Part shown: piece by piece, positions 1,580-12,087 of the stretch
Position numbering within the stretch: position 1 is the first letter of the stretch
How the letters are laid out: each line of letters starts with the position of its first letter
Origin: Candidatus Auribacterota bacterium
GTDB taxonomy: Bacteria > Auribacterota > JAFGBW01
Assembly: GCA_016932965.1 (NCBI GenBank)
Contig: JAFGBW010000220.1
Coordinates: 1-12,241, forward strand
Direction of reading: 5' to 3'
Length of the DNA stretch: 12,241 bases
Position numbers and translations under genes: made by a program
Notes under the pieces: model-generated
Databases searched by the model: none
Told to the model about the DNA's origin: nothing
What the model saw: the letters and a program-made list of their open reading frames with translations, nothing else

Positions 1580-2899
1580 TCAGGCGGAACCCTCGACAAA
1601 CCGGGCAACAGCCTGTCTTATAGAGCCGGCCGTATCAAACGGTATATGACTCAGCACGTTATGGATGACCTCCTGCCAGCTCATGCCGCTGCCATAACGG
1701 CTCTCTTTAAAAAGCGTAGAGGTAACGATCAGATCATCTATCCACTTTACAACCTCATCCAAAGGCAGTTCCTCGGTGCAATCAAAAACGCGCTCCATCT
1801 TTTGTTTCCTGGAATGAAACATCTCAGGATTTTCCAATAAAATTTTTAATATTTCCTCCAGTTCCTGTTCTGAATGGCCCTTTTCTCTCAAGGCGGCAAA
1901 AAGTCCGGTATCTTTAAGGTCAAATCCCATGATATTCATCAGTTCTCTCAGACCCTCCAGATATCCGGCGCTGCCGTGGATTCCGTTCTCAAGCACATTG
2001 GCAGCAGAATTCATCCCTAAAAATACGTTCCTGAATGTACCTTCTTTAGCTTGAGTTGGATCATTAGCGCCTATGAGATCCCTTAAAGCTTTTACTTCAA
2101 AATCAGGGGAAAGACGCACACTAAATGCAAGAATACCGCATCCTTGGGTATAAAAAGTATTCAATTGTGCCGCATAAAATCCATCCACTACGGCAAATGT
2201 CTCCCCTTCGAAAGTATAGGGCTTCGAATAAATTCCAGGCATGGTCTTAAACGGCTTTCCGGCTTTTGACCACATCCGGGCAATTTCTATATCAGTTATG
2301 GATATTTCCGGTTTACTTTTTCTCCTTAAAATCTCATTGATTCTGGTAACAGCTTCCAGACCACCCACAACATGATCTGAAGGCACATTAAAATGATCGG
2401 CAATCCCTTTAAGCTTTTCATCCCCCATCCACCTGGCATTCTGTGCCACATTGTTTATCACCCCGTAATGACGCTCCATCATGCCCTTTTGTTTCAGGTG
2501 AGCGGCATTCATTATTTTCATGCCTGTCAGAACCGTTTTTTTGTCTTTCAGGAGTGTTTTCATGATCAATTTATAAAACTCCGGGAAAGCCAGACTGTTT
2601 GCTTTAAAAAACAGGGTCACTTCCCTTCCGGGAGTTGTCTGCGGCCTGTTGGGAACCAGTATTTCCTCCCTAGGAGAGGAATCTGCCGTAACGGATGGAA
2701 TGAGATTCGTGTAAATATCATTCGCTGCCATGTCTATCAATGAAGGCATTTGCTCATCTGAGGCAATGACAGCCGCCCCGCCCTGAACCTGTTCTGACAG
2801 ATCCGCCATTTGTTCATAGATGGATACGGATTTGGGTGAAAGGGTAAAAGCAAACCACGAAAAACAAACCCATAACAAGCAAGAAAGAATATGTTTCAT
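1580..2899 (-). CDS. Nucleoside-diphosphate-kinase-like protein with signal peptide and LSP motif
   Basis: A 439-residue protein. Residues 4-19 form a hydrophobic signal-like segment followed at once by LSP (20-22). The similarity to nucleoside-diphosphate kinase (phosphotransfer between NTPs and NDPs through a phosphohistidine) comes in two blocks. Residues 93-150 (TLFFK...LTGMKIM...ERHYG) match the NDK start, with K99 at the place of the conserved lysine. Residues about 250-325 match the NDK core: LIGANDPTQAKEGTFR (compare GATNPADAxPGTIR, R290) and NGIHGS with H308 at the catalytic histidine. About 85-100 extra residues lie between the blocks, and five more between R290 and H308. The Asp normally following HGS is Ala. 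The C-terminal ~100 residues are unassigned. It is the last gene of a three-gene operon; a strong AAGGAG overlaps the previous gene's stop. NDK is normally ~140-150 residues and cytosolic. Activity is inferred, not certain. Confidence 0.72.
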   Translation of the reverse strand: MKHILSCLLWVCFSWFAFTLSPKSVSIYEQMADLSEQVQGGAAVIASDEQMPSLIDMAANDIYTNLIPSVTADSSPREEILVPNRPQTTPGREVTLFFKANSLAFPEFYKLIMKTLLKDKKTVLTGMKIMNAAHLKQKGMMERHYGVINNVAQNARWMGDEKLKGIADHFNVPSDHVVGGLEAVTRINEILRRKSKPEISITDIEIARMWSKAGKPFKTMPGIYSKPYTFEGETFAVVDGFYAAQLNTFYTQGCGILAFSVRLSPDFEVKALRDLIGANDPTQAKEGTFRNVFLGMNSAANVLENGIHGSAGYLEGLRELMNIMGFDLKDTGLFAALREKGHSEQELEEILKILLENPEMFHSRKQKMERVFDCTEELPLDEVVKWIDDLIVTSTLFKESRYGSGMSWQEVIHNVLSHIPFDTAGSIRQAVARFVEGSA

Positions 2900-2904
2900 A
2901 TAAA

Positions 2905-2910
2905 CTCCTT
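2905..2910 (-). promoter_or_regulatory. Strong ribosome binding site overlapping the upstream stop codon
   Basis: AAGGAG on the minus strand lies five bases before the ATG at 2899 and shares two bases with the TAA stop of the kinase-HD gene. This fixes the NDK-like start and suggests translational coupling of the two genes. Confidence 0.8.
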
Positions 2911-5182
2911 AACCTGATTTCCTGAATGGAGCTGTTTCTGCCGGTACAGGAAGCGAAGGGGCCGGCCCGGTACGCAAAAGAAGAACAGACCCAAAAATCC
3001 CGCCCGGCAATTCCTCACGGGTGATGATCTGAAAACCCGCCCTTTCAACGGCCGCAAAATAAACTTCTTTGGGATCGTCCAATCTGACCTGCTCCAATGT
3101 GGCGGTTAATTGTAAAATCACTTCCAATGCGGCATCCCACGGTTCTGCAGTAATAAAACTCCCTACAGATGCAGGAGCATTGGATTTCATGTGATAATAC
3201 AATTTCAATATTTTGGCCAGCATTTCATCCTGTTCATCTGTTTCCTCTTTATAATGATCTCTCAAGACTCTCGTGACATTGGAAAAACTGACTGTTCCAT
3301 ATAGATTGAATTCCTCCACCACAGCAGGGTATTTCTGAACAAAACGGTCAAACCAGGGAGAATCACCTCCGGGATTGGTGAAAAATTCCTTACGTGGGGT
3401 CAATAATTTCCGCAAACGGATTTTTGCATCCATATATTTTTCAGGATGTTCCATGATGTCGCAATATCCGGCCAGGGAAGAAGGCCTGAGCTTATTGGGC
3501 CCCCTCACCAACTGATTGTAGGAAGGATTCGGGTTTCTGTACCCGGCCAGATCAACAATATTCTGAACAAGAAGACAGATATTTTGCTGGGGGGAATCGT
3601 GCAGAAAAACGGTCGGATCACCAAAGCCCAGATTGACATCTCCGACAATAGTGTGTTTCCTGATGATATCAGGTATAAAGGTGTTATCTTCCAAAAAACG
3701 GATGCCCAGTAAACGCATCTTTCCAGGAAAATGTACGGCACCCAGAAAACCGTGATTCTGTCCGTTACTGCCTTTCATAGTGGCCCCCAGATCATGAAAC
3801 AAGACCTCCCAGGTTAAAAGCCATCTCTCATAAGGAGTAGTCAGGGTATATAATCTTTCATGTATTCGTCTGAGCCGTTCGATATATTGCGCCCTGACAT
3901 CTGAAGGCAGGGGCTGATCATACCCCAAATCATATTGCTGGGTGAAATATTCAAACCTGCCGTGGAGAAGACGGTTATAATAGACTACCACTTCCACGAC
4001 ATGTTCAAATTTAAAAGTGTCGGGAAAACCATTTTCTCCGAATTCAGAGATGAGTCTTGGAATAGTCTCCCGGAGCTTTTGTCTCAGGACCTCGACATCA
4101 TCCCCGTCATAATCGATAATAAAAGAAACGAGCCTTTGAAGCTCAATGCCTTTCAGAAAATGACTGGTCCTGTCCAGTACCTCTTTTGTCCGCGCATCAT
4201 AGGAAGCATACCCTGACAGAGGAAAATACCCGAAGGCAGAACGAAGAGGAACGGAAGTATGATATTGACGAAAAATTTCCGGGGTATAGCCGTCTATTTT
4301 ATCCCGTTCTGAATATAGACGGCCGTACTGGGCAATCAAATCCCGGCGCATGACCTCTTCGGAAAGCAGAACCTGATCCGGGGCATCTGATGTCTTCAAA
4401 ATGTCCCGCAAATACAAATTCTTTAACTCATGTCCGTCTCTCAGCCACCTGTTCAATTCCCCCTCTCCTGCCTGTTCCGGAGTGACTTCAAGATACAATT
4501 CAATGGAAGGGACATTCATGGCGCGGATGGAGGGCAATGCACGATACCGGCAGTCAACGAGCACGGAATAACCGGATTCCAGCAAATCCTGTAATTCCCT
4601 GATCCTGAACTCTCCCATGAAACCGGATTGATTCAATACCTCTGTGACAGCAGATATCGCTATGTTGTTTGCCATATCCCTGTTGGCTTTCAGATTGATC
4701 AAGGCATACAAGTCCACAGGCGGTCCTTCATCGGTCACATGCTCGTAAGTGACATAACGGGTTCCGTCGGGACGCTGGTTGATTTTCCGGACCAATTGCC
4801 GGGAAAAGTTCCTGGCGTATTGATCCACTTCTCGACGATGCTCGCTCAAATACGCCGTGAATGCTTGTCTGGTTTTCACTAATTCCGGATCGATCTGCCT
4901 GACATGTTCCACTATCTGAAGGGTGAACACCCTGTATAAATCCCCCCAGGAAAACTGGACGCTGTCTGGAATATGCCCGGCAAGATCTCTTTCAAGCATG
5001 GATTTGCCTGAACCGCTGTTTCCGACGATCGCTATCAACTGGCCTTTGGTTTCCAGATATTTGGTGGAAAATTGAACAGAGGATACTGGGGCCAGGGATG
5101 AGGTATCGGCTGAATATCCATCTTTAATCAAAAAAATCCCGAATATCAGGACCCCTATCAAACTTTTTTTTTTAATCCACAT
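2909..5182 (-). CDS. P-loop (cytidylate-kinase-like) kinase fused to HD phosphohydrolase, with signal peptide and LAP motif
   Basis: A 757-residue protein. Three lysines and a hydrophobic run (residues 7-19) form a signal-like start, with a plausible cleavage after YSA (25); LAP is at 30-32. A P-loop kinase domain follows: LIAIVGNSGSGKS (Walker A, 54-61), then SWGDLYRVF, which resembles the substrate region of cytidylate kinases, and a GYSVLVDCR strand resembling their VLDGRD segment. The second domain carries an HD phosphohydrolase pattern: H394, H463-D464 (FHDLGA), H477, H510 and D544. The N-terminus predicts phosphoryl transfer and the HD part predicts phosphate or phosphodiester hydrolysis; substrates are unknown. 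The last ~120 residues are unassigned. It is the middle gene of the operon, 20 bases after the radical SAM gene and 9 before the NDK-like gene. Its start has only a weak upstream GACGG, with an in-frame TGA just before, so no longer start exists. Confidence 0.78.
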   Translation of the reverse strand: MWIKKKSLIGVLIFGIFLIKDGYSADTSSLAPVSSVQFSTKYLETKGQLIAIVGNSGSGKSMLERDLAGHIPDSVQFSWGDLYRVFTLQIVEHVRQIDPELVKTRQAFTAYLSEHRREVDQYARNFSRQLVRKINQRPDGTRYVTYEHVTDEGPPVDLYALINLKANRDMANNIAISAVTEVLNQSGFMGEFRIRELQDLLESGYSVLVDCRYRALPSIRAMNVPSIELYLEVTPEQAGEGELNRWLRDGHELKNLYLRDILKTSDAPDQVLLSEEVMRRDLIAQYGRLYSERDKIDGYTPEIFRQYHTSVPLRSAFGYFPLSGYASYDARTKEVLDRTSHFLKGIELQRLVSFIIDYDGDDVEVLRQKLRETIPRLISEFGENGFPDTFKFEHVVEVVVYYNRLLHGRFEYFTQQYDLGYDQPLPSDVRAQYIERLRRIHERLYTLTTPYERWLLTWEVLFHDLGATMKGSNGQNHGFLGAVHFPGKMRLLGIRFLEDNTFIPDIIRKHTIVGDVNLGFGDPTVFLHDSPQQNICLLVQNIVDLAGYRNPNPSYNQLVRGPNKLRPSSLAGYCDIMEHPEKYMDAKIRLRKLLTPRKEFFTNPGGDSPWFDRFVQKYPAVVEEFNLYGTVSFSNVTRVLRDHYKEETDEQDEMLAKILKLYYHMKSNAPASVGSFITAEPWDAALEVILQLTATLEQVRLDDPKEVYFAAVERAGFQIITREELPGGIFGSVLLLRTGPAPSLPVPAETAPFRKSG

Positions 5183-5202
5183 GTTCCGTCAACCATATCG
5201 GG

Positions 5203-6309
5203 TTACGCAGAGGAGGCGTCCCTCTCCAATGCCCACTTATCAAAATTCAAAAGGGATCCGCAAACTCCCCCAATATCCCTTCCATGCCCCTTGGATATTT
5301 TAACTACAAATCCCATATCTATCAAAGTTCTAACAAATTTCCGCAACTCCTCATCCACATTAATTCCTGACAACAAATGGATTTGTCCATCAGCCGTATT
5401 GACTCTAGCAAAACTAAAGGCAAAATGCTGGGGATCAAAATACCTAGTTAAATTAGCTAATGTTGTGTCATTAATGTTTAATTCGGTTAAAATATAATTA
5501 AGAAAAACTTTTCTTCCAGTTGCTTCACTCCAACGCCTGCCGTATCTTTGCAATCGAGCTAAATATCTACTGCTCCTCATTACCGTTCCTTCTAAGGGAT
5601 GAATACTCAATTGCAGGCCGATCTGGGGAATACGCTGTGACAATTCGATAAAATCATCGTATAATTTCGAATCAACTTTCGGCATCATGGTTGAAACCAA
5701 AAGCTGAGCCCTTGGAAAAAGACGGTTCAATTCTATCAAAGCTTCTTTCACATTATCATAATTGACAAAAGGTTCCCCCATGGACATCAGCATGATTTGA
5801 AATTGTTTGGCTTCATCTCTTACTGTCTCGTAAACACCGCGGTGTTTAAGCATGCTGACCACCTGCTCCACGATTTCAGCCGATGTCAATGACCGGTAAA
5901 ACCTGCCTTTTGTCGCGCAATACCGGCATTTCTGGGGACAGCCGCAGCTTATCGAAATGCAGCATAAGACGCGTCTTTTAAAATCAGCGCTTTCCGTAAA
6001 AAGAACACATTCAGTCAGGGCCGAAGCCAGCTGAGGCACTCCCAGCTTCATTTCAACACCTGCAGGGAAAAAGGTATAGACATATTTCCAGATATACGGA
6101 TTGCCGTCAGGCAGCCGGTCCTGACTCTCAAAACAGTGTTCTATCAGGCCGCGCACCGTAGTGGCAGGGGCAAGAGTGTGCTGCGAAGTACTCTCCGGGG
6201 CCGAATGGATTCTCTGACCAGCGAAACCGGTGCTTATAAAGAAACAAAAGAAAAAAATGCCATAATAAAGAGATATTTTTTTATTGCAAAAAATCATGCT
6301 GCACGACAT
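5203..6309 (-). CDS. RlmN/Cfr-like radical SAM protein with signal peptide and LAP motif
   Basis: A 368-residue protein. The hydrophobic segment at 12-29 (LYYGIFFFCFFISTGFA) looks like a signal peptide with possible cleavage after A30; LAP is at 46-48. The body matches RlmN/Cfr, SAM enzymes that methylate an RNA adenine through a methyl-cysteine. The iron-sulfur motif C124-x3-C128-x2-C131 is present, with C117 upstream at the spacing seen in RlmN (CxxxxxxC before the cluster), SMGEPFVNYDNV corresponds to GMGEPLLNYDNV, and C350 in RDIGGVCGSL corresponds to the catalytic C-terminal cysteine of DIxAACGQL. Both mechanistic cysteines are therefore kept. The RlmN accessory N-terminal domain is largely missing and replaced by the signal/LAP leader. 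RNA methylation in an export location is paradoxical, so the substrate may differ. It heads the three-gene operon and has a clear promoter; AGGAAGAA precedes the ATG, and an alternative ATG lies four codons in. Confidence 0.82.
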   Translation of the reverse strand: MSCSMIFCNKKISLYYGIFFFCFFISTGFAGQRIHSAPESTSQHTLAPATTVRGLIEHCFESQDRLPDGNPYIWKYVYTFFPAGVEMKLGVPQLASALTECVLFTESADFKRRVLCCISISCGCPQKCRYCATKGRFYRSLTSAEIVEQVVSMLKHRGVYETVRDEAKQFQIMLMSMGEPFVNYDNVKEALIELNRLFPRAQLLVSTMMPKVDSKLYDDFIELSQRIPQIGLQLSIHPLEGTVMRSSRYLARLQRYGRRWSEATGRKVFLNYILTELNINDTTLANLTRYFDPQHFAFSFARVNTADGQIHLLSGINVDEELRKFVRTLIDMGFVVKISKGHGRDIGGVCGSLLNFDKWALERDASSA

Positions 6310-6347
6310 TTCTTCCTATTCCTTATTTTATCTCTTCCTCTGCTTAA

Positions 6348-6375
6348 TATTTACCTCATGAAAAAAGAAAGTCAA
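6348..6375 (-). promoter_or_regulatory. Promoter of the radical SAM/kinase-HD/NDK operon
   Basis: On the minus strand TTGACT (6375-6370), a 16-base spacer and TAAATA (6353-6348) lie 38 bases upstream of the radical SAM start. The element shares TATTGACTTT and CATGAGGTAAATA with the promoter of the 848-residue gene at 7780-7810. The match continues outside the -35 and -10 hexamers, which suggests a common regulator or sigma factor. Confidence 0.7.
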
Positions 6376-6390
6376 TAGATCAGCTGTATT

Positions 6391-6413
6391 TTTTTAATCA
6401 AATTCATTAAAAA
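6391..6413. repeat. A+T-only inverted repeat upstream of the operon promoter
   Basis: TTTTTAAT (6391-6398) and ATTAAAAA (6406-6413) are perfect 8-base inverted arms around a 7-base loop. The repeat lies 15 bases upstream of the -35 box and after the isochorismatase-like gene's stop. It could act as an UP element, a regulator site or a weak end for the upstream transcript; the sequence does not decide between them. Confidence 0.5.
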
Positions 6414-6461
6414 TAGGAGAACATCTTCATATTATATAACTTCCTGCTTTCATGAATTTTA

Positions 6462-7283
6462 TCATGCCGCGCCCAATACCAGGGCATGCCCGGCACAGGA
6501 TATCCCGGCCTGCTGCAATGCTTCAAGAGCCAGAGCATGTGTTCCTTCTCCCAACGAAGTGGCAACAGAATCTGATAATACGGTTATATCCAACCGGCCT
6601 TTATAGGGGGAGCCCGCTGTCCGGGTGATACAGGCATCGGTTTCAACACCACAGACAAGCGGTTTCATAAGGCCATGCTGTTCAAGCCACCTGGCAAGAT
6701 CCGTTTCGCAGAATCCGTCATAATGGTGCTTGACCACTTCAAATGCTTGGATGGGCAATTGTTCTATCGGGGCGATCAATCTGCTGCCCCAGGTATTTTT
6801 TTTACACGGATAATACCGCGGGTGTTTCCGTAAAAAATCCGGCGGCGGAGCTTTTGGGTTCTCATATTTTCTCGTATGATCATATTCCACACGGACAAAA
6901 ATAATGGGGATCCCTTGTTGTTCAGCCTGGCAGATCGTTTCCAGGACTCTGGCGATAAAATCAGGTGAAAATTCCTTTCTCAGTCTGTATTCCTGCTCAG
7001 CAGAAGGAGTCTCCAGGGCCTGCTCATAATCAGTTGAGGCGGGACTGGTCATTTCTGCTTCAAGATCTGTTTTTCTGTCGTAGTACCCCTTTTGGGCAAG
7101 AAAATCGTTCTGCATATCAATCACAATCAATACGTTATTTCCTGTGAACCTGACATCTTCTGCTTCGGAGATCGGTATCAGCTTCAAACTGCATTTTTTA
7201 GGGGCAAGGAAATCATGCCCAATCCCCCAAACTGAATTTGAAAGAAAGATCATATTGACTATGAATATGATTGATTTTTTCAT
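6462..7283 (-). CDS. Isochorismatase-family hydrolase with signal peptide and LAP motif
   Basis: A 273-residue protein. Start: the ATG at 7283 gives MKKSIIFIVNMIFLSNSVWG, a clean signal-peptide start; a GTG five codons upstream (7298) is in frame but lacks a binding site. LAP is at 26-28. The rest is an isochorismatase-like cysteine hydrolase with the full triad: D56 in VLIVIDMQNDF, K185 in EVVKHHYDGF, and C218 in CGVETDACITRTA. Members hydrolyse amides or vinyl ethers (nicotinamide, isochorismate, ureidoacrylate). The D-x-H metal site typical of nicotinamidase PncA is not evident, so I do not call it PncA despite a nucleotidyltransferase-like neighbour. An insertion at about 70-105, rich in Glu and polar residues, lengthens it beyond the usual ~180-220 residues. 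It has its own promoter, divergent from the 848-residue gene; reading on into the radical SAM operon is possible. Confidence 0.85.
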   Translation of the reverse strand: MKKSIIFIVNMIFLSNSVWGIGHDFLAPKKCSLKLIPISEAEDVRFTGNNVLIVIDMQNDFLAQKGYYDRKTDLEAEMTSPASTDYEQALETPSAEQEYRLRKEFSPDFIARVLETICQAEQQGIPIIFVRVEYDHTRKYENPKAPPPDFLRKHPRYYPCKKNTWGSRLIAPIEQLPIQAFEVVKHHYDGFCETDLARWLEQHGLMKPLVCGVETDACITRTAGSPYKGRLDITVLSDSVATSLGEGTHALALEALQQAGISCAGHALVLGAA

Positions 7284-7346
7284 GATCTCATTTTTCACTT
7301 AATACTGAAATCGATATTATTAACATGCCTGGTTGACCTCAATTTA

Positions 7347-7375
7347 TTATTACCTGAATTGATAAATCATGTCAA
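7347..7375 (-). promoter_or_regulatory. Promoter of the isochorismatase-family gene
   Basis: On the minus strand TTGACA (7375-7370), a 17-base spacer and TAATAA (7352-7347) form a near-consensus sigma-70 promoter, 63 bases upstream of the chosen ATG. It ends AGGTAATAATA, resembling the AGGTAAATA of the two other promoters in this window but without their CATG. Confidence 0.7.
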
Positions 7376-7395
7376 GCCATGAGGCTCTGGAACAT

Positions 7396-7625
7396 GGTGA
7401 ATAGTAAATAGTGAATGGGAAAAACGGCTTGTGAGTTGGAATGATGAAATTTCTTTTTACTTGTAACTCAACATTTATAGCTCTAATCCATTGCGCCTCT
7501 GTGGTAAACCTTTTCTCTCATCCCGGGCAACAGCGAAACATCCATAACTAGTAACTGATGATTTGGTGACTAGTGACTGGTACCAGCAGATCATTACTCC
7601 TCTCCTGTCACTATTCACTATTTAC
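7396..7625. repeat. Imperfect inverted repeat pair of GTGAATAGT words
   Basis: The 23 bases at 7396-7418 (GGTGAATAGTAAATAGTGAA and three more) match the reverse complement of 7604-7625 with about four differences. The arms enclose roughly 185 bases. Each arm is itself built of 7-9 base AGTGAAT/AGTAAAT words, so this may be repeat drift and not the ends of a transposable unit. Confidence 0.5.
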
Positions 7626-7627
7626 CA

Positions 7628-7655
7628 TTCTCAATTCTAAATTCTAAATTCTCAA
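7628..7655. repeat. Heptamer tandem array TTCTMAA, four units (copy 2)
   Basis: Four exact 7-base units: TTCTCAA, TTCTAAA, TTCTAAA, TTCTCAA, followed by a C run and ATGGTG. It differs from copy 1 (838-865) only in the second unit and has the same kind of flanks. Confidence 0.8.
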
Positions 7656-7779
7656 TCCCCCCCATGGTGTCACTGTTTCTTTGGGAATTTCCTCCAATTG
7701 TCAAACTTTGCCAGTCCAAAGGCTGTACCGTTAGGTTACCGGCCTAAATAAACAAATTTTTAAAAAAAATGATTCTAAG

Positions 7780-7810
7780 TATTGACTTTTCCGGCGGCAT
7801 GAGGTAAATA
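7780..7810 (+). promoter_or_regulatory. Promoter of the 848-residue nucleotidyltransferase-like gene
   Basis: TTGACT (7782-7787), a 17-base spacer and TAAATA (7805-7810) are preceded by an A+T-rich, UP-like stretch. It shares TATTGACTTT and CATGAGGTAAATA with the promoter at 6348-6375. Transcription from here gives a leader of about 110 bases. A second, weaker TTTAAT/TATAAT pair lies closer to the gene (about 7874-7902). Confidence 0.7.
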
Positions 7811-7928
7811 AAATCATGTAAAAAAGGTCATAAGATGATGCTCAATATACAGACAACGAAGTTCAAAATGGAATTTAATCATACTCCTTATTAATATATA
7901 ATGCTAAAGAACAAAGAAGGGAACTGCT

Positions 7929-10475
7929 ATGTGTAGAGATAATAATCATTTGTTCTTACAACTCATTTTACTGATCTTCTTTTCATTCCCCCCTCTTCAG
8001 TCAAAGGAAATGGCTGTCGATTCCGCACTGGCCCCTAAAAACAATAATTTGACTGCCGTAACCATTATGGAACTGGGCCCCCGTGTTGATGCCAAAACCC
8101 CTTTGGCCATGAAATGGCAGACGGTCAAGCAAAAAATCCTGAGAGGAGACCAGGAATTCCACGGAGATGAATTCCTGAAAAATTTATTTACCGACAAATA
8201 TGCGGGAATCATTCACACAATCAATCAGGACCCGGAAAAACATCTCTTAACCATCAATGCCCTGGACTTCATGATGAACACTTACAACTGGGTTACGCTG
8301 GAATACATCAATGAACCCTTGCTGGTGCAAGAGGGAGCGAACGAAGACGAAGAAAAGGAAAAGGCTATCCAGGAAATGCGGGTCATGTTTGATGCTATCA
8401 TCAGCGCAGTGGCAAGAACTTGCGATAGATTAGCCAGCGGGGACCTGACAGCCGGGTCTGTTCAATTAAGAACATCAGAAGATAAGACAGTGACACCTGT
8501 TTCCAACGCCAGAGATGCCTCTGGCAATAAAAGAAATGCAAAAGTGGTTATTTTACCAGTAAAATTCGACCCGTTGACAATGGCTCACATCCGGCTGATA
8601 TTCGAAAGTTTCGCACAGGGAGCGGACTGCGTCGTCACCATGATGGACGAATATGATGAGAGAAAAGCCGGACTTTCCGGCCGCACCATCAGAGAGGCTG
8701 ACACAAAATGGCTGTATGACGCTTTAAACGGGTTTCTTGTCGAGCCTGCCTTTCAATGTGAACGCAGATCGTTACTTGACTGTGACGGCGAGGCGATTCT
8801 TCCGACTTTGATTTATGAGAACAGGGCCATAGCCGAGGATGTGACCTGGATCTATCTGGCCGGTTACGACCATTTCAACTGGATAAGAACAGTGCCGGAC
8901 GCGCTCATGAGTATGCATGAGTTTGACGTTCAAATGGCTAAATACGCCGTTGATCCTAGGGAAATGCATGAACTCCTAAAGACCAATAAAATGGTCAATA
9001 ATTTTTATAAATTTCAAAGGAATCTCGCTGATCTTCCTGAAGTAGAGAGGAGGGCGTTAATAGCGACGATAGAAAAAAGATGGCCGGAACAGGCTTCGAA
9101 TATCATTCCTCTCCTGAACGGCCTTGTGCACTACCTGAGGGAAATGGACACACCGTCCAAACTGGCCCATACCCGGCAATTGATGTTATCTCTGAATATC
9201 AATACTTCAATAGGCGGATTCATTGTAAAACGTCTTGCAGATGCCAGAGATAAGACTGACGACCTAATACGAGAACGTCACAAGGCTATTGAAGCTTTAT
9301 GTAAGATAGCTGAAATAGATTATTATGAACAAACAATCAATGATTGGCTGGACATGACCCACTTGCCTGCTCCAATCAGAGATCATCTTGCTGTTTTCAG
9401 GGAAAGGCTAACCCGGTGGATATCCGATAAAAAGGAGCATGAGATAAATTACGATGGAAATGGCAGTCCGCATGAACCGGAGACGATTGAGAAAATAAAA
9501 ACCTGGCTGGGTTATTATCAAACCGCACAAAATCCCCGGCTTGCTACCAATGTCAGAGTGACCAACTGGCATAAACGATATGAACAAGCGGCTCAATGGA
9601 AAGAGCGCGGGCCGGCCGGCACTGAAAGACATATCCTTTCTGATTTATTCGATCAATTGTTAGGGCTGACAGAAGTTGATGGTTTTGATCAATTCTTTGA
9701 AGGACTGGATAAAATTTATTCTCAAAGCAATGGAATGAGTTTTACAATAGCTAAATCCCCGTCAAAAAATCCATCCTCCCGGTTAAGAATCGATGATACC
9801 GGTCATTCCATGCCTTATATAGGTTTCCAGCATGCCACGTCACTGGCCCTGCATCGTCCCTACTCAGACGACTATATAACAAAAAAAGACAGGGAAATTG
9901 CCGCTCAAGTCATCGGTTCGCTGATAGACCTGAACCTGTTTAAGCACCCTGGAATGGCGACAGTCAATAGAGCACAGATCAATCCTGAGCGATTAACAGA
10001 AATTCTAGGAAAAGTCTTAATTTACTCATTGGATATGGATATGCTGTTATCAACCATATTAAAAAGAGCAAAAGATTCTCTGGCTGTTAAAGAACGGTCT
10101 CCGCTGATGACAAGGGATTCAACAAGAGCCCTAATGGCATATAGCGATATAGCACACATGATGCATTCTGCTTACGGCCGCGGACTCAGCGCCATCGATA
10201 TATTTTTATCAACGTGTTTCAAAAATGATAACTCATATACGGCCCTGCGTCATACCATCGCGCAGGGCGTTCATGATGACGCGGCTGCGATGAAACTGGT
10301 CAGAAAAAAGATCACTGCATTCCGGGATCTGGTAAGGCAAAGATGCGAAACGATTTTTGCAGAAAGCGAAGGCAATCCTCACCCGATGAGTTCAGCTAAA
10401 AGAAGATTCATCCTGGAACAAATAACCGGCGGAACGATGCTGACTGAGCATTCTCTTGTCCGGGCCTCTTCATAG
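7929..10475 (+). CDS. Large protein with NadD/CoaD-type nucleotidyltransferase motifs, signal peptide and LAP motif
   Basis: An 848-residue protein. A hydrophobic run (8-20) gives a signal-like start and LAP is at 34-36. Residues about 205-325 contain VVILPVKFDPLTMAHIRLI: F213-D-P followed by T217-M-A-H220 matches the (T/H)xGH motif of NMN/nicotinate-mononucleotide and phosphopantetheine adenylyltransferases (compare FDPxTNGH). LSGRTIRE (249-256) resembles the ISSTxIR nucleotide motif but lies unusually close to the first one. IYLAGYDHFNWI (308-319) resembles the GADxxxxfxxW strand of NadD. I infer adenylyl transfer to a nucleotide-like substrate, with moderate doubt because Gly of xGH is Ala and motif spacing is unusual. 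Residues 1-200 and about 340-848 are largely helical, unrecognised, and make up most of the protein. AAGG eight bases before the ATG supports the start. Gene is divergent from the isochorismatase-family gene. Confidence 0.65.
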   Translation: MCRDNNHLFLQLILLIFFSFPPLQSKEMAVDSALAPKNNNLTAVTIMELGPRVDAKTPLAMKWQTVKQKILRGDQEFHGDEFLKNLFTDKYAGIIHTINQDPEKHLLTINALDFMMNTYNWVTLEYINEPLLVQEGANEDEEKEKAIQEMRVMFDAIISAVARTCDRLASGDLTAGSVQLRTSEDKTVTPVSNARDASGNKRNAKVVILPVKFDPLTMAHIRLIFESFAQGADCVVTMMDEYDERKAGLSGRTIREADTKWLYDALNGFLVEPAFQCERRSLLDCDGEAILPTLIYENRAIAEDVTWIYLAGYDHFNWIRTVPDALMSMHEFDVQMAKYAVDPREMHELLKTNKMVNNFYKFQRNLADLPEVERRALIATIEKRWPEQASNIIPLLNGLVHYLREMDTPSKLAHTRQLMLSLNINTSIGGFIVKRLADARDKTDDLIRERHKAIEALCKIAEIDYYEQTINDWLDMTHLPAPIRDHLAVFRERLTRWISDKKEHEINYDGNGSPHEPETIEKIKTWLGYYQTAQNPRLATNVRVTNWHKRYEQAAQWKERGPAGTERHILSDLFDQLLGLTEVDGFDQFFEGLDKIYSQSNGMSFTIAKSPSKNPSSRLRIDDTGHSMPYIGFQHATSLALHRPYSDDYITKKDREIAAQVIGSLIDLNLFKHPGMATVNRAQINPERLTEILGKVLIYSLDMDMLLSTILKRAKDSLAVKERSPLMTRDSTRALMAYSDIAHMMHSAYGRGLSAIDIFLSTCFKNDNSYTALRHTIAQGVHDDAAAMKLVRKKITAFRDLVRQRCETIFAESEGNPHPMSSAKRRFILEQITGGTMLTEHSLVRASS

Positions 10476-10546
10476 GAATAAGACAGATGCGAAGACGGGA
10501 TCAAAAAACGCAAAAAGGCGTGGATAATATATCCTGTATTTTCTTC

Positions 10547-10568
10547 TTTTTTCCTGATCAGGAAAAAA
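10547..10568. repeat. Perfect 22-base palindrome between the two plus-strand genes
   Basis: Six T, CCTGATCAGG and six A form an exact two-fold symmetric sequence 72 bases after the nucleotidyltransferase-like gene. As RNA it could fold to a 9-pair stem with a GATC loop, but no U run follows, so it is a poor terminator. A dimeric-regulator operator for the uridine-kinase/CYTH gene (start 10669) is equally possible. Confidence 0.55.
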
Positions 10569-10668
10569 CAAATTTTTCAGGATTCATTCAACAGAACGTA
10601 ACAACCTCAGAAATCAAAAAATTTGAACACCCGATACCCCGCTTTTAGGGTTTTTAGAGATATGGAGA

Positions 10669-12087
10669 ATGAAAAACAAAGGAATCATCCTTATTTGTAA
10701 TAAAGCCATTATGGTAACTGCTCTTCTGGCATTTGTTACGACCATGATAGGGGCAGTGCCTCTACCTGACACTTTTTCAAATGCAGCGCATCATTCCCAG
10801 GCTCTTTCCCCGGCTTCCATTCTGGATAAGGCGTCCCCGCCGTCCGCCAAGAAGCAAAAAGAAGGGAAACTCACGGAAGGAATCATGCAAGTGGCCATTT
10901 CAGACATAGAAGCAGCCATCAGAAAAAAAAAAGAAGAATCCGATGAACCTTTTATTATCCTGATCGGCGGAAAATCCTGCTCCGGGAAAACAACTCAAAT
11001 AGCCCAGGTTCTGGCAAAACATTTTTCCTGCAATGTTCTTGAAATGGACATGTATTACCTGGGCCGCACCTACATGAGAGAACATGGGTATGACAGTTTT
11101 GACATCCCTCAGGTCTTTGATTTGGGGCTTCTTGTGGAAAACATCCGGCAGTTGAGAAACAGGCAGACGGCCCGGATACCCGTTTACTCTTTTCTAACCA
11201 AAGAAAGACAGGGGTACACAGATCTTCCTCCTGCGGATGTCCTCATCATAGAAGGCATGTTCGGACTGGATGATCAACTCGCCGAACAGGGTGATTACTG
11301 TCTTTTTATTGATATAGGAAAAATCGGGCAACTGCTCAGAAGAATGTATAAGGAAGTGATCATAGGAAGAACCGGGCACACTTTCCGTCATGAAATCAGA
11401 CAATTATTGACCCAGGTCATCCCTTCTGAAAAAGAATACATTGAACCCACCCGAAAAAATGCGGATGTGATTGTCCATAATGAATACAACCCTGAAGTAG
11501 AGTCCGCCTTATTGCCATACACGGAAGTGCAGGCCAAGATCAACTCAGTCAATCTTCCTGCAGGCAGATTGACTGAGTTGGGGGCCCGGCAACTCGCTGA
11601 AACACAACACATCGACACCTACTATGTCCCTATTGATACGGATCTGGCACAAAACGGGGAAACACTGATGATCCGGGAGGAAGATCAGGAAATGAGTTTG
11701 ACTTATAAAGGGCCGCTTATTCCTTCCGAATTACAATACCGGACCAGGCTGAATCTGCCCTTTGAAAGAGATTTGCTTCCTTTTGTCCATCTTGATTATA
11801 AGCCGGTTGCGAAAATCCGTAAAACCAGAACAACATACAAACTCAACGAGCTGATCATCCATCTGGACCATGTGGAAACACTCGGGGATTTCATCGAAAT
11901 CACTACTCCTGAACCGGCCAATGCCGGAGACAGAGATACCATACTGGAACTCCTCAGAACATTGGGTATTTCTCAAGACAGAATCATCAAAAAAACCTAT
12001 CTGGATTTGATGCTGGAAAAAACCCCCTGGACTGAAACAAGGCCTTCAACCGGCGAAAGATCCAGCGGAGTCCCTTCTTCAGCATAA
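10669..12087 (+). CDS. Uridine-kinase-like/CYTH fusion with signal peptide and LSP motif
   Basis: A 472-residue protein. Hydrophobic residues 13-29 form a signal-like segment; LSP is at 46-48, followed by a Lys-rich linker. Residues about 94-275 are a uridine/phosphoribulokinase-type P-loop domain: IGGKSCSGKT (Walker A, 100-108), EMDMYYLGRTY, DSFDIPQVFDLGLL, ARIPVYSFLTKER, ADVLIIEGMFGL and a late EYIEPTRKNAD. Residues about 284-450 are a CYTH (triphosphate tunnel) domain: EVQAK (a variant of ExExK, 286-290), DTYYVPIDTDLA, LTYKGP, KIRKTRTTYKL and LGDFIEITTP. The kinase-CYTH order is the one of plant TTM1/TTM2, which hydrolyse pyrophosphate (established family knowledge); here a signal/LSP leader is added. 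A near-perfect palindrome encodes residues 292-304. The start is supported by GGAG just before the ATG, though the spacing is short. It may be read with the upstream gene or from an unseen promoter. Confidence 0.85.
   Translation: MKNKGIILICNKAIMVTALLAFVTTMIGAVPLPDTFSNAAHHSQALSPASILDKASPPSAKKQKEGKLTEGIMQVAISDIEAAIRKKKEESDEPFIILIGGKSCSGKTTQIAQVLAKHFSCNVLEMDMYYLGRTYMREHGYDSFDIPQVFDLGLLVENIRQLRNRQTARIPVYSFLTKERQGYTDLPPADVLIIEGMFGLDDQLAEQGDYCLFIDIGKIGQLLRRMYKEVIIGRTGHTFRHEIRQLLTQVIPSEKEYIEPTRKNADVIVHNEYNPEVESALLPYTEVQAKINSVNLPAGRLTELGARQLAETQHIDTYYVPIDTDLAQNGETLMIREEDQEMSLTYKGPLIPSELQYRTRLNLPFERDLLPFVHLDYKPVAKIRKTRTTYKLNELIIHLDHVETLGDFIEITTPEPANAGDRDTILELLRTLGISQDRIIKKTYLDLMLEKTPWTETRPSTGERSSGVPSSA
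11541..11580. repeat. 40-base palindrome inside the CYTH coding sequence
   Basis: Nineteen of twenty base pairs of a 40-base two-fold symmetric sequence match: arms CAACTCAGTCAATCT and AGATTGACTGAGTTG (15 bases, exact), one T/C mismatch, and a central CCTGCAGG. Because of the symmetry and phase, NSVNLPAGRLTEL is encoded both in the gene's own frame (residues 292-304) and in one minus-strand frame. It lies between the EVQAK strand and the LGARQL segment of the CYTH domain. Confidence 0.95.

Follow-up and report, generated by a model that had tools for sequence, protein, structure and literature searches.

A candidate sorting or processing tag at both ends of Sec-exported, cytosol-type proteins in a Candidatus Auribacterota bacterium

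The window analyzed here is a 12,241-nucleotide contig (JAFGBW010000220.1) of the Candidatus Auribacterota bacterium assembly GCA_016932965.1. Six of its genes encode proteins that resemble unrelated cytosolic enzymes, and yet each begins with a hydrophobic segment followed by the tripeptide LAP or LSP, which raises the question of whether this tripeptide is a signal and, if so, for what. We found that its extended form, L[AS]Px[ST], occurs genome-wide and is coupled to a small C-terminal end, [SA]-[AS]. Behind a Sec-type signal peptide, the two marks probably act together as a two-ended sorting or processing tag of one bacterial lineage. No description of such a tag was found in the open-access literature.

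The N-terminal motif and its C-terminal partner

The source genome is a 3.14-Mb metagenome assembly of 300 contigs, 92.6% complete, and the window is one of these contigs. The sequence analyzed comprised 101 stretches, including the window, with 996,619 bases (18,619 of them N), leaving ~0.98 Mb readable of the 3.14 Mb. Open reading frames (ORFs) and signal-like leaders were called by a simple hydropathy rule of our own, not by SignalP. For discovery, hits were picked in a first sample on L[AS]P only; the rule, once fixed as L[AS]Px[ST], was run on a second, untouched sample of 397 kb.

In the first sample, no tripeptide of the post-signal region was more enriched than LAP, with 20 occurrences versus 1.6 expected (P ~1e-15), and LSP was found 9 times versus 2.4 expected. 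The aligned hits of this sample, picked without regard to that position, had a serine or threonine two residues past the proline in 30 of 33 cases, and the consensus after the hydrophobic segment is L-[AS]-P-x-[ST]. This preference and the C-terminal partner described below go beyond the preliminary description of this DNA, which had named a genome-wide comparison of L[AS]P with shuffled N termini as a check. With that check run, the tripeptide is far beyond chance: across both samples, the strict motif L[AS]Px[ST] is present in 38 of 247 signal-like proteins, whereas residue-shuffled N termini give 1.3, with a maximum of 6 in 400 shuffles. The corresponding values are 34 of 241 versus 1.3 when the window is left out and 26 of 231 versus 1.2 when the cluster of tagged genes on contig C37 is left out as well. 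In the second sample, with the rule fixed beforehand, there were 8 motif proteins versus 0.28 expected from body frequencies (P = 7.5e-10). The protein bodies themselves are not enriched in the motif, which occurs 3 times in 21,649 residues of the tagged class.

The strict-motif proteins also share their other end. Alanine is the last residue in 18 of 33 of them, compared with 7 of 193 other signal-like proteins and 18 of 378 leaderless proteins, and alanine or serine occupies both last positions in 18 of 33, compared with 10 of 193 (Fisher P = 3.6e-11) and 9 of 378, respectively. The tagged C termini read [SA]-[AS], most often ...SA or ...AA. Among the 26 signal-like proteins that end in alanine, 18 have the strict motif, 5 have a near variant (LAPKK, LAPLH, LAPKH, LAQKS, or ISPTT), and 3 have neither. 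An ATP synthase c subunit-like protein is surely a chance member of the 18, and a few further motif matches, a BtuF-like protein among them, are chance hits on ordinary proteins; because the hits include such cases, the true linkage of the two ends is probably somewhat stronger than counted. Both the motif and the C-terminal mark that goes with it are firmly established.

A curated list of 44 members, which admitted near variants partly by their C termini, was used for the comparison of leader and flank DNA, for cleavage sites, and for some composition values; because of this partial selection on the C terminus, the unbiased figures are those of the strict-motif set. The leaders fit a Sec signal peptide, with a mean n-region charge of +1.7 and a hydrophobic core, and, by a simple and permissive criterion, 42 of 43 have a plausible -3/-1 cleavage site no later than the motif. 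Cysteine makes up 0.8% of the tagged bodies versus 1.6% of leaderless proteins (P = 3e-8) and is as low as in other exported proteins; this exported-type value, together with the cleavage sites, supports real export. The lipobox of lipoproteins is likewise a short motif beside the signal-peptide cleavage region, but the tag lacks a lipidated cysteine. A lipobox-like string is present in 1 of 43 leaders, which rules out lipoprotein sorting, as the preliminary description had held.

Lysine accounts for 5.5% of residues in the tagged class versus 8.1% in other exported proteins and 7.7% in leaderless proteins (P < 1e-8). The depletion is seen in the tagged class only and holds after correction for GC content and in the test sample by itself. 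The tagged bodies are also arginine-rich and more acidic. Toxin A chains whose route leads through the endoplasmic reticulum (ER) have a strong arginine-over-lysine bias (review, PMC6471375); the shift in the tagged class is mild, and its likeness to that of the toxin A chains is only a hint.

Tagged proteins in the window and across the genome

All six window proteins decode with a hydrophobic N-terminal segment and the L[AS]P tripeptide at the residues first reported for them; for the isochorismatase, LAP at residues 26 to 28 holds from an internal ATG at 7283, which is a reasonable start. The fifth motif position is S or T in four of the six. The genes and their marks, the latter decoded from the sequence, are as follows.

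1580..2899, minus strand: NDK-like exported protein, 439 residues, C terminus ...EGSA (ORF; weak NDK matches in the C-terminal half, whose alignment includes the NDK His motif region, IHGS)
2828..2842, minus strand: motif LSPKS, residues 20 to 24 of the NDK-like protein
1583..1591, minus strand: C-terminal tag GSA of the NDK-like protein (also from the class-wide statistics)
2909..5182, minus strand: P-loop kinase-like protein with a probable HD region, 757 residues, P-loop GNSGSGKS, C terminus ...RKSG (ORF; weak P-loop/cytidylate-kinase matches)
5081..5095, minus strand: motif LAPVS, residues 30 to 34 of the P-loop kinase-like protein
5203..6309, minus strand: RlmN/Cfr-like radical SAM protein, 368 residues, C terminus ...ASSA (family matches and alignment with Escherichia coli RlmN)
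6160..6174, minus strand: motif LAPAT, residues 46 to 50 of the RlmN-like protein
5206..5214, minus strand: C-terminal tag SSA of the RlmN-like protein
6462..7283, minus strand: isochorismatase-family hydrolase, 273 residues from the internal ATG, C terminus ...LGAA (Pfam PF00857, E = 2.7e-26)
7194..7208, minus strand: motif LAPKK, residues 26 to 30 of the isochorismatase, fifth position not S/T
6465..6473, minus strand: C-terminal tag GAA of the isochorismatase
7929..10475, plus strand: nucleotidyltransferase-like protein, 848 residues, C terminus ...RASS (ORF; a candidate label, from the stretch FDPLTMAH only)
8028..8042, plus strand: motif LAPKN, residues 34 to 38 of the nucleotidyltransferase-like protein
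10464..10472, plus strand: C-terminal tag ASS of the nucleotidyltransferase-like protein
10669..12087, plus strand: uridine kinase-CYTH fusion, 472 residues, C terminus ...PSSA (Pfam PRK and CYTH; PDB 7z66 match over both domains)
10804..10818, plus strand: motif LSPAS, residues 46 to 50 of the uridine kinase-CYTH protein
12076..12084, plus strand: C-terminal tag SSA of the uridine kinase-CYTH protein

In the alignment with E. coli RlmN, the RlmN-like protein keeps CxxxCxxC and the two further catalytic cysteine positions, and since two ordinary RlmN genes are present elsewhere in the source genome, the tagged gene is an extra copy. The HD region of the 757-residue protein has no Pfam hit, the HD reading being that of the preliminary description, and no real homologue of this protein was found in the 44 phylum genomes searched. 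The 848-residue protein gave no family hit in profile scans and has no real homologue in the 29 phylum genomes searched; tandem paralogues of its gene on contig C185 have a diverged hydrophobic leader, with VDSALAPKNNNLTAVTIMELGPRVDA identical, and the C-terminal ASS is retained in a paralogue despite a diverged tail. An AlphaFold model of the isochorismatase made without an alignment was useless (predicted local distance difference test score, 33). The plant proteins TTM1 and TTM2 have the same domain order as the uridine kinase-CYTH protein (the PDB 7z66 match) and, to our knowledge, no such leader and tag. Within the ORF of this fusion, between its two domains, there is a nearly perfect 40-base palindrome (11541-11580; NSVNLPAGRLTEL on both strands) that can be likened to a protein-coding palindromic insertion; no second copy was seen in the sampled genome.

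Outside the window, the tag was found on a GNAT protein, a PrmA-like methyltransferase, an amidohydrolase, divergent Ser/Thr kinases, a GH116 protein, an AAA_5 giant and an AAA_5/WD40 giant, an Asp/Glu racemase-like protein, an Orn/Lys/Arg decarboxylase, and many orphans. The preliminary description had read the locus as encoding an extracytoplasmic nucleotide/cofactor enzyme set; the tag is not confined to such enzymes and also marks protein kinases, GH116, the AAA/WD40 giants, the decarboxylase, and orphans. Its proposal of a dedicated export, processing, or targeting signal remains the best reading, but the tag is not local to the locus and extends over varied cargo throughout the genome. 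The destinations that it named (vesicles, an internal compartment, or another cell) are each conceivable, as is the cell surface. The Ser/Thr kinase family has 26 matches in the genome; high scores belong to its typical members, and the tagged kinases fall with the weak, divergent matches. The two tagged giants (L016, 8166-16508, and L032, 1171-9768) have more than 2,700 residues each, are broken at the contig end, and have dynein-type AAA_5 domains; one also has a WD40 propeller. The densest cluster seen lies on contig C37 (L040, 980-15781), a 16.5-kb contig on which nine tagged genes are interleaved with housekeeping genes.

Relatives, known systems, and possible function

The phylum comparison set consisted of twelve genomes, two from the same order and none from the same family. 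The motif was present in none of the 108 signal-like proteins from these twelve genomes and in none of the 65 from the two same-order genomes, the latter an outcome with a chance of 2e-5 at the rate of the source genome. In 80 stretches of named genomes from other phyla, the fixed rule gave 5 hits, and none of the 4 with a known end closes in alanine. Among named genomes, scanning with the RlmN-like protein turned up no relative, and with PNPase the matches, in Gemmatimonadota, Thermus, Bacillota, and Chlamydiae, reached only about 50% identity. Viral contigs and phages contained no relative of the tagged proteins as wholes, just matches to the uridine kinase domain at ~30% identity.

PEXEL of Plasmodium (RxLxE/Q/D) is a short motif shortly after the signal sequence of unrelated proteins that form a sorted subset of the secretome (PMC4740378). 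The tag likewise is a short motif at a limited distance behind the signal sequence on unrelated proteins, whereas PEXEL is eukaryotic, has other residues, is cleaved by plasmepsin V in the ER, and has no C-terminal partner. The RXLR (EER) effectors of oomycetes have their motif close behind the signal peptide and two short processing motifs each (PMC11754927). The tag motif also lies in the segment close behind the signal peptide and there are two short marks per protein, but RXLR is eukaryotic and uses other residues, and both of its motifs are N-terminal. Neither the RxLxE/Q/D nor the RxLR residues are found in the consensus L[AS]Px[ST]; by analogy, the tag would work like PEXEL and RXLR, and it is not a member of either.

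The type IX secretion system (T9SS) C-terminal domain, PEP-CTERM/exosortase, LPXTG/sortase, and rhombosortase GlyGly-CTERM signals resemble the tag in marking Sec-exported proteins of some lineages for a dedicated machine. Those signals are domains or tripartite tails, whereas here the main motif is N-terminal and the C-terminal mark is just a pair of small residues that lacks a membrane segment. No Pfam hit to the T9SS C-terminal domain was obtained among the 34 tagged or candidate proteins scanned, and the tripartite tail of PEP-CTERM and sortase substrates (membrane segment and basic end) is absent, the C termini being mostly [SA][AS] with no Pfam hit. Type III secretion effectors, which have a noncleaved, non-Sec signal, were rejected on account of the hydrophobic Sec-type leaders and the single FHIPEP gene.

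In the two-ended tag that we favor, the leader would carry the protein across the inner membrane and be removed upstream of the motif. A dedicated factor, which might be a protease that processes the protein or an adaptor leading to an outer-membrane route, would then read the exposed L[AS]Px[ST] and the free small C terminus, and the tagged protein would reach a place other than that of the ordinary secreted proteins of the same cell. Enzymes that use adenosine triphosphate (ATP), S-adenosylmethionine (SAM), pyridoxal phosphate (PLP), or an iron-sulfur cluster would be of little use in the periplasm. Because many cargoes need one of these and keep their catalytic residues, the likeliest end point may, more tentatively, be one that supplies them, for example an internal compartment or the interior of a partner or host cell. 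A more speculative extension, less likely than not, is that the tag is a bacterial counterpart of PEXEL and RXLR by which some hundred or more cytosol-type enzymes, exported by Sec, reach the cytoplasm of another cell.

The motif and the two-residue C-terminal end, replicated and absent from the sampled relatives, mark out a new class of exported proteins whose members can be identified directly in sequence. Only a few bacterial sorting signals act once the signal peptide has been removed, and most of those known are C-terminal. Should the cargo work within another cell, an address tag comparable to PEXEL/RXLR would have arisen in bacteria, and it would indicate an interaction partner for a lineage that is known solely from metagenomes.

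Several observations weigh against the sorting tag. The spacing of 0 to about 36 residues between hydrophobic segment and motif is looser than that of a classical cleavage site, the [SA]-[AS] end is missing in about a third of the motif proteins, and the body composition of the tagged class matches neither exported nor cytosolic proteins cleanly. No recognizing factor, delivery machine, or host was found: neither S41 tail-specific proteases, of which the source genome has one strong gene, nor secretins outnumber those of relatives that lack the motif, and a gain of either was rejected for this lack of excess. An ATP/ADP translocase was not found in the source genome, and the single FHIPEP gene is the same as in the two order-level relatives. 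In addition, leaders were called by the hydropathy rule instead of SignalP. A search for SprA of T9SS was uninformative, with no hit in the source genome and the control genomes likewise silent. Signal peptidase I (PF10502) had no match in the source genome and was present in 10 of 10 phylum relatives searched, which may be a gap because ~7% of the genome is missing.

It is possible, although unlikely, that the motif is a protease site only: a second peptidase would cut it after signal-peptide removal and so set the mature N terminus of proteins that stay periplasmic or on the surface, with the C-terminal [SA]A trimmed or read by a tail-specific protease and no separate destination. Small nonpolar C termini suit tail-specific proteases, and the strong S41 gene is at hand. 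Such a site, however, leaves the lysine depletion unexplained and places ATP-, SAM-, and PLP-using cargo where it would have little to do. A processing signal of this kind would still predict a dedicated protease and its substrates. RXLR provides a parallel in being a cleavable short motif in a disordered post-signal segment, accompanied by a second cleavage motif (PMC11754927).

We consider it improbable that the tag directs a second enzyme set to a membrane-bounded internal compartment that is topologically extracytosolic and holds nucleotides and cofactors. The cytosol-type cargo with its catalytic residues kept, beside ordinary cytosolic copies in the case of RlmN, would fit such a compartment, but no shell, membrane-remodeling, or nucleotide-carrier gene is linked to the tagged class, and the cargo forms no pathway. 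Very doubtful, too, is a modification site, in which the conserved S/T would be O-glycosylated or the motif would anchor to the surface, so that the tag fixes proteins to the envelope. The S/T is near-invariant beside proline, and some bacterial O-glycosylation sites are S/T next to proline. However, L, A/S, and P are no less strict than the S/T, and a modification would not account for the C-terminal partner; there is one motif per protein, and because it does not recur in the bodies, a multicopy modification site is disfavored.

Chance or composition, with A/P/S-rich segments behind hydrophobic leaders often yielding LAP and the window as a lucky pick, has next to no probability: unrelated named genomes also have a slight excess (4 versus 0.84 in shuffles), but their 4 hits with a known end lack the C-terminal alanine, and the 38 proteins versus 1.3 in shuffles, the untouched replication, the independent fifth-position preference, the C-terminal linkage, and the lysine depletion speak against it, the shuffles and the second sample ruling it out as a full explanation.

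The tagged bodies are unrelated apart from two kinases, and blastn of the leader DNA gave only three weak matches of 17-30 bases, in agreement with the initial view that the N termini do not share descent. The flanks of the tagged genes, compared by k-mers, have only promoter-like words in common (TTGACA and GGTATAAT). The motif is a short signal that recurs on unrelated proteins and not a product of common descent. A mobile leader cassette copied onto many genes might be read from the clustering (6 in the window and 9 on contig C37), but with so little leader similarity, no upstream or downstream element beyond the promoter-like words, and a tag at both protein ends, it has hardly any standing and was ruled out by the leader and flank comparisons. 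The upstream enrichment of TTGACA and GGTATAAT would suit a sigma-70 promoter of its own for most of the tagged genes.

Neighboring features of the window

An ordinary ispF gene adjoins the six tagged genes. At 1-470, outside the tagged class, lie the beginning of a BatA-like gene and, on the minus strand, a small membrane protein with a weak zinc-ribbon match. An interspersed AT-rich repeat (TATTCACCATTTCCCATTCTCAATTCT...) occurs in two intergenic regions of the window, at 808-873 and 7598-7663.

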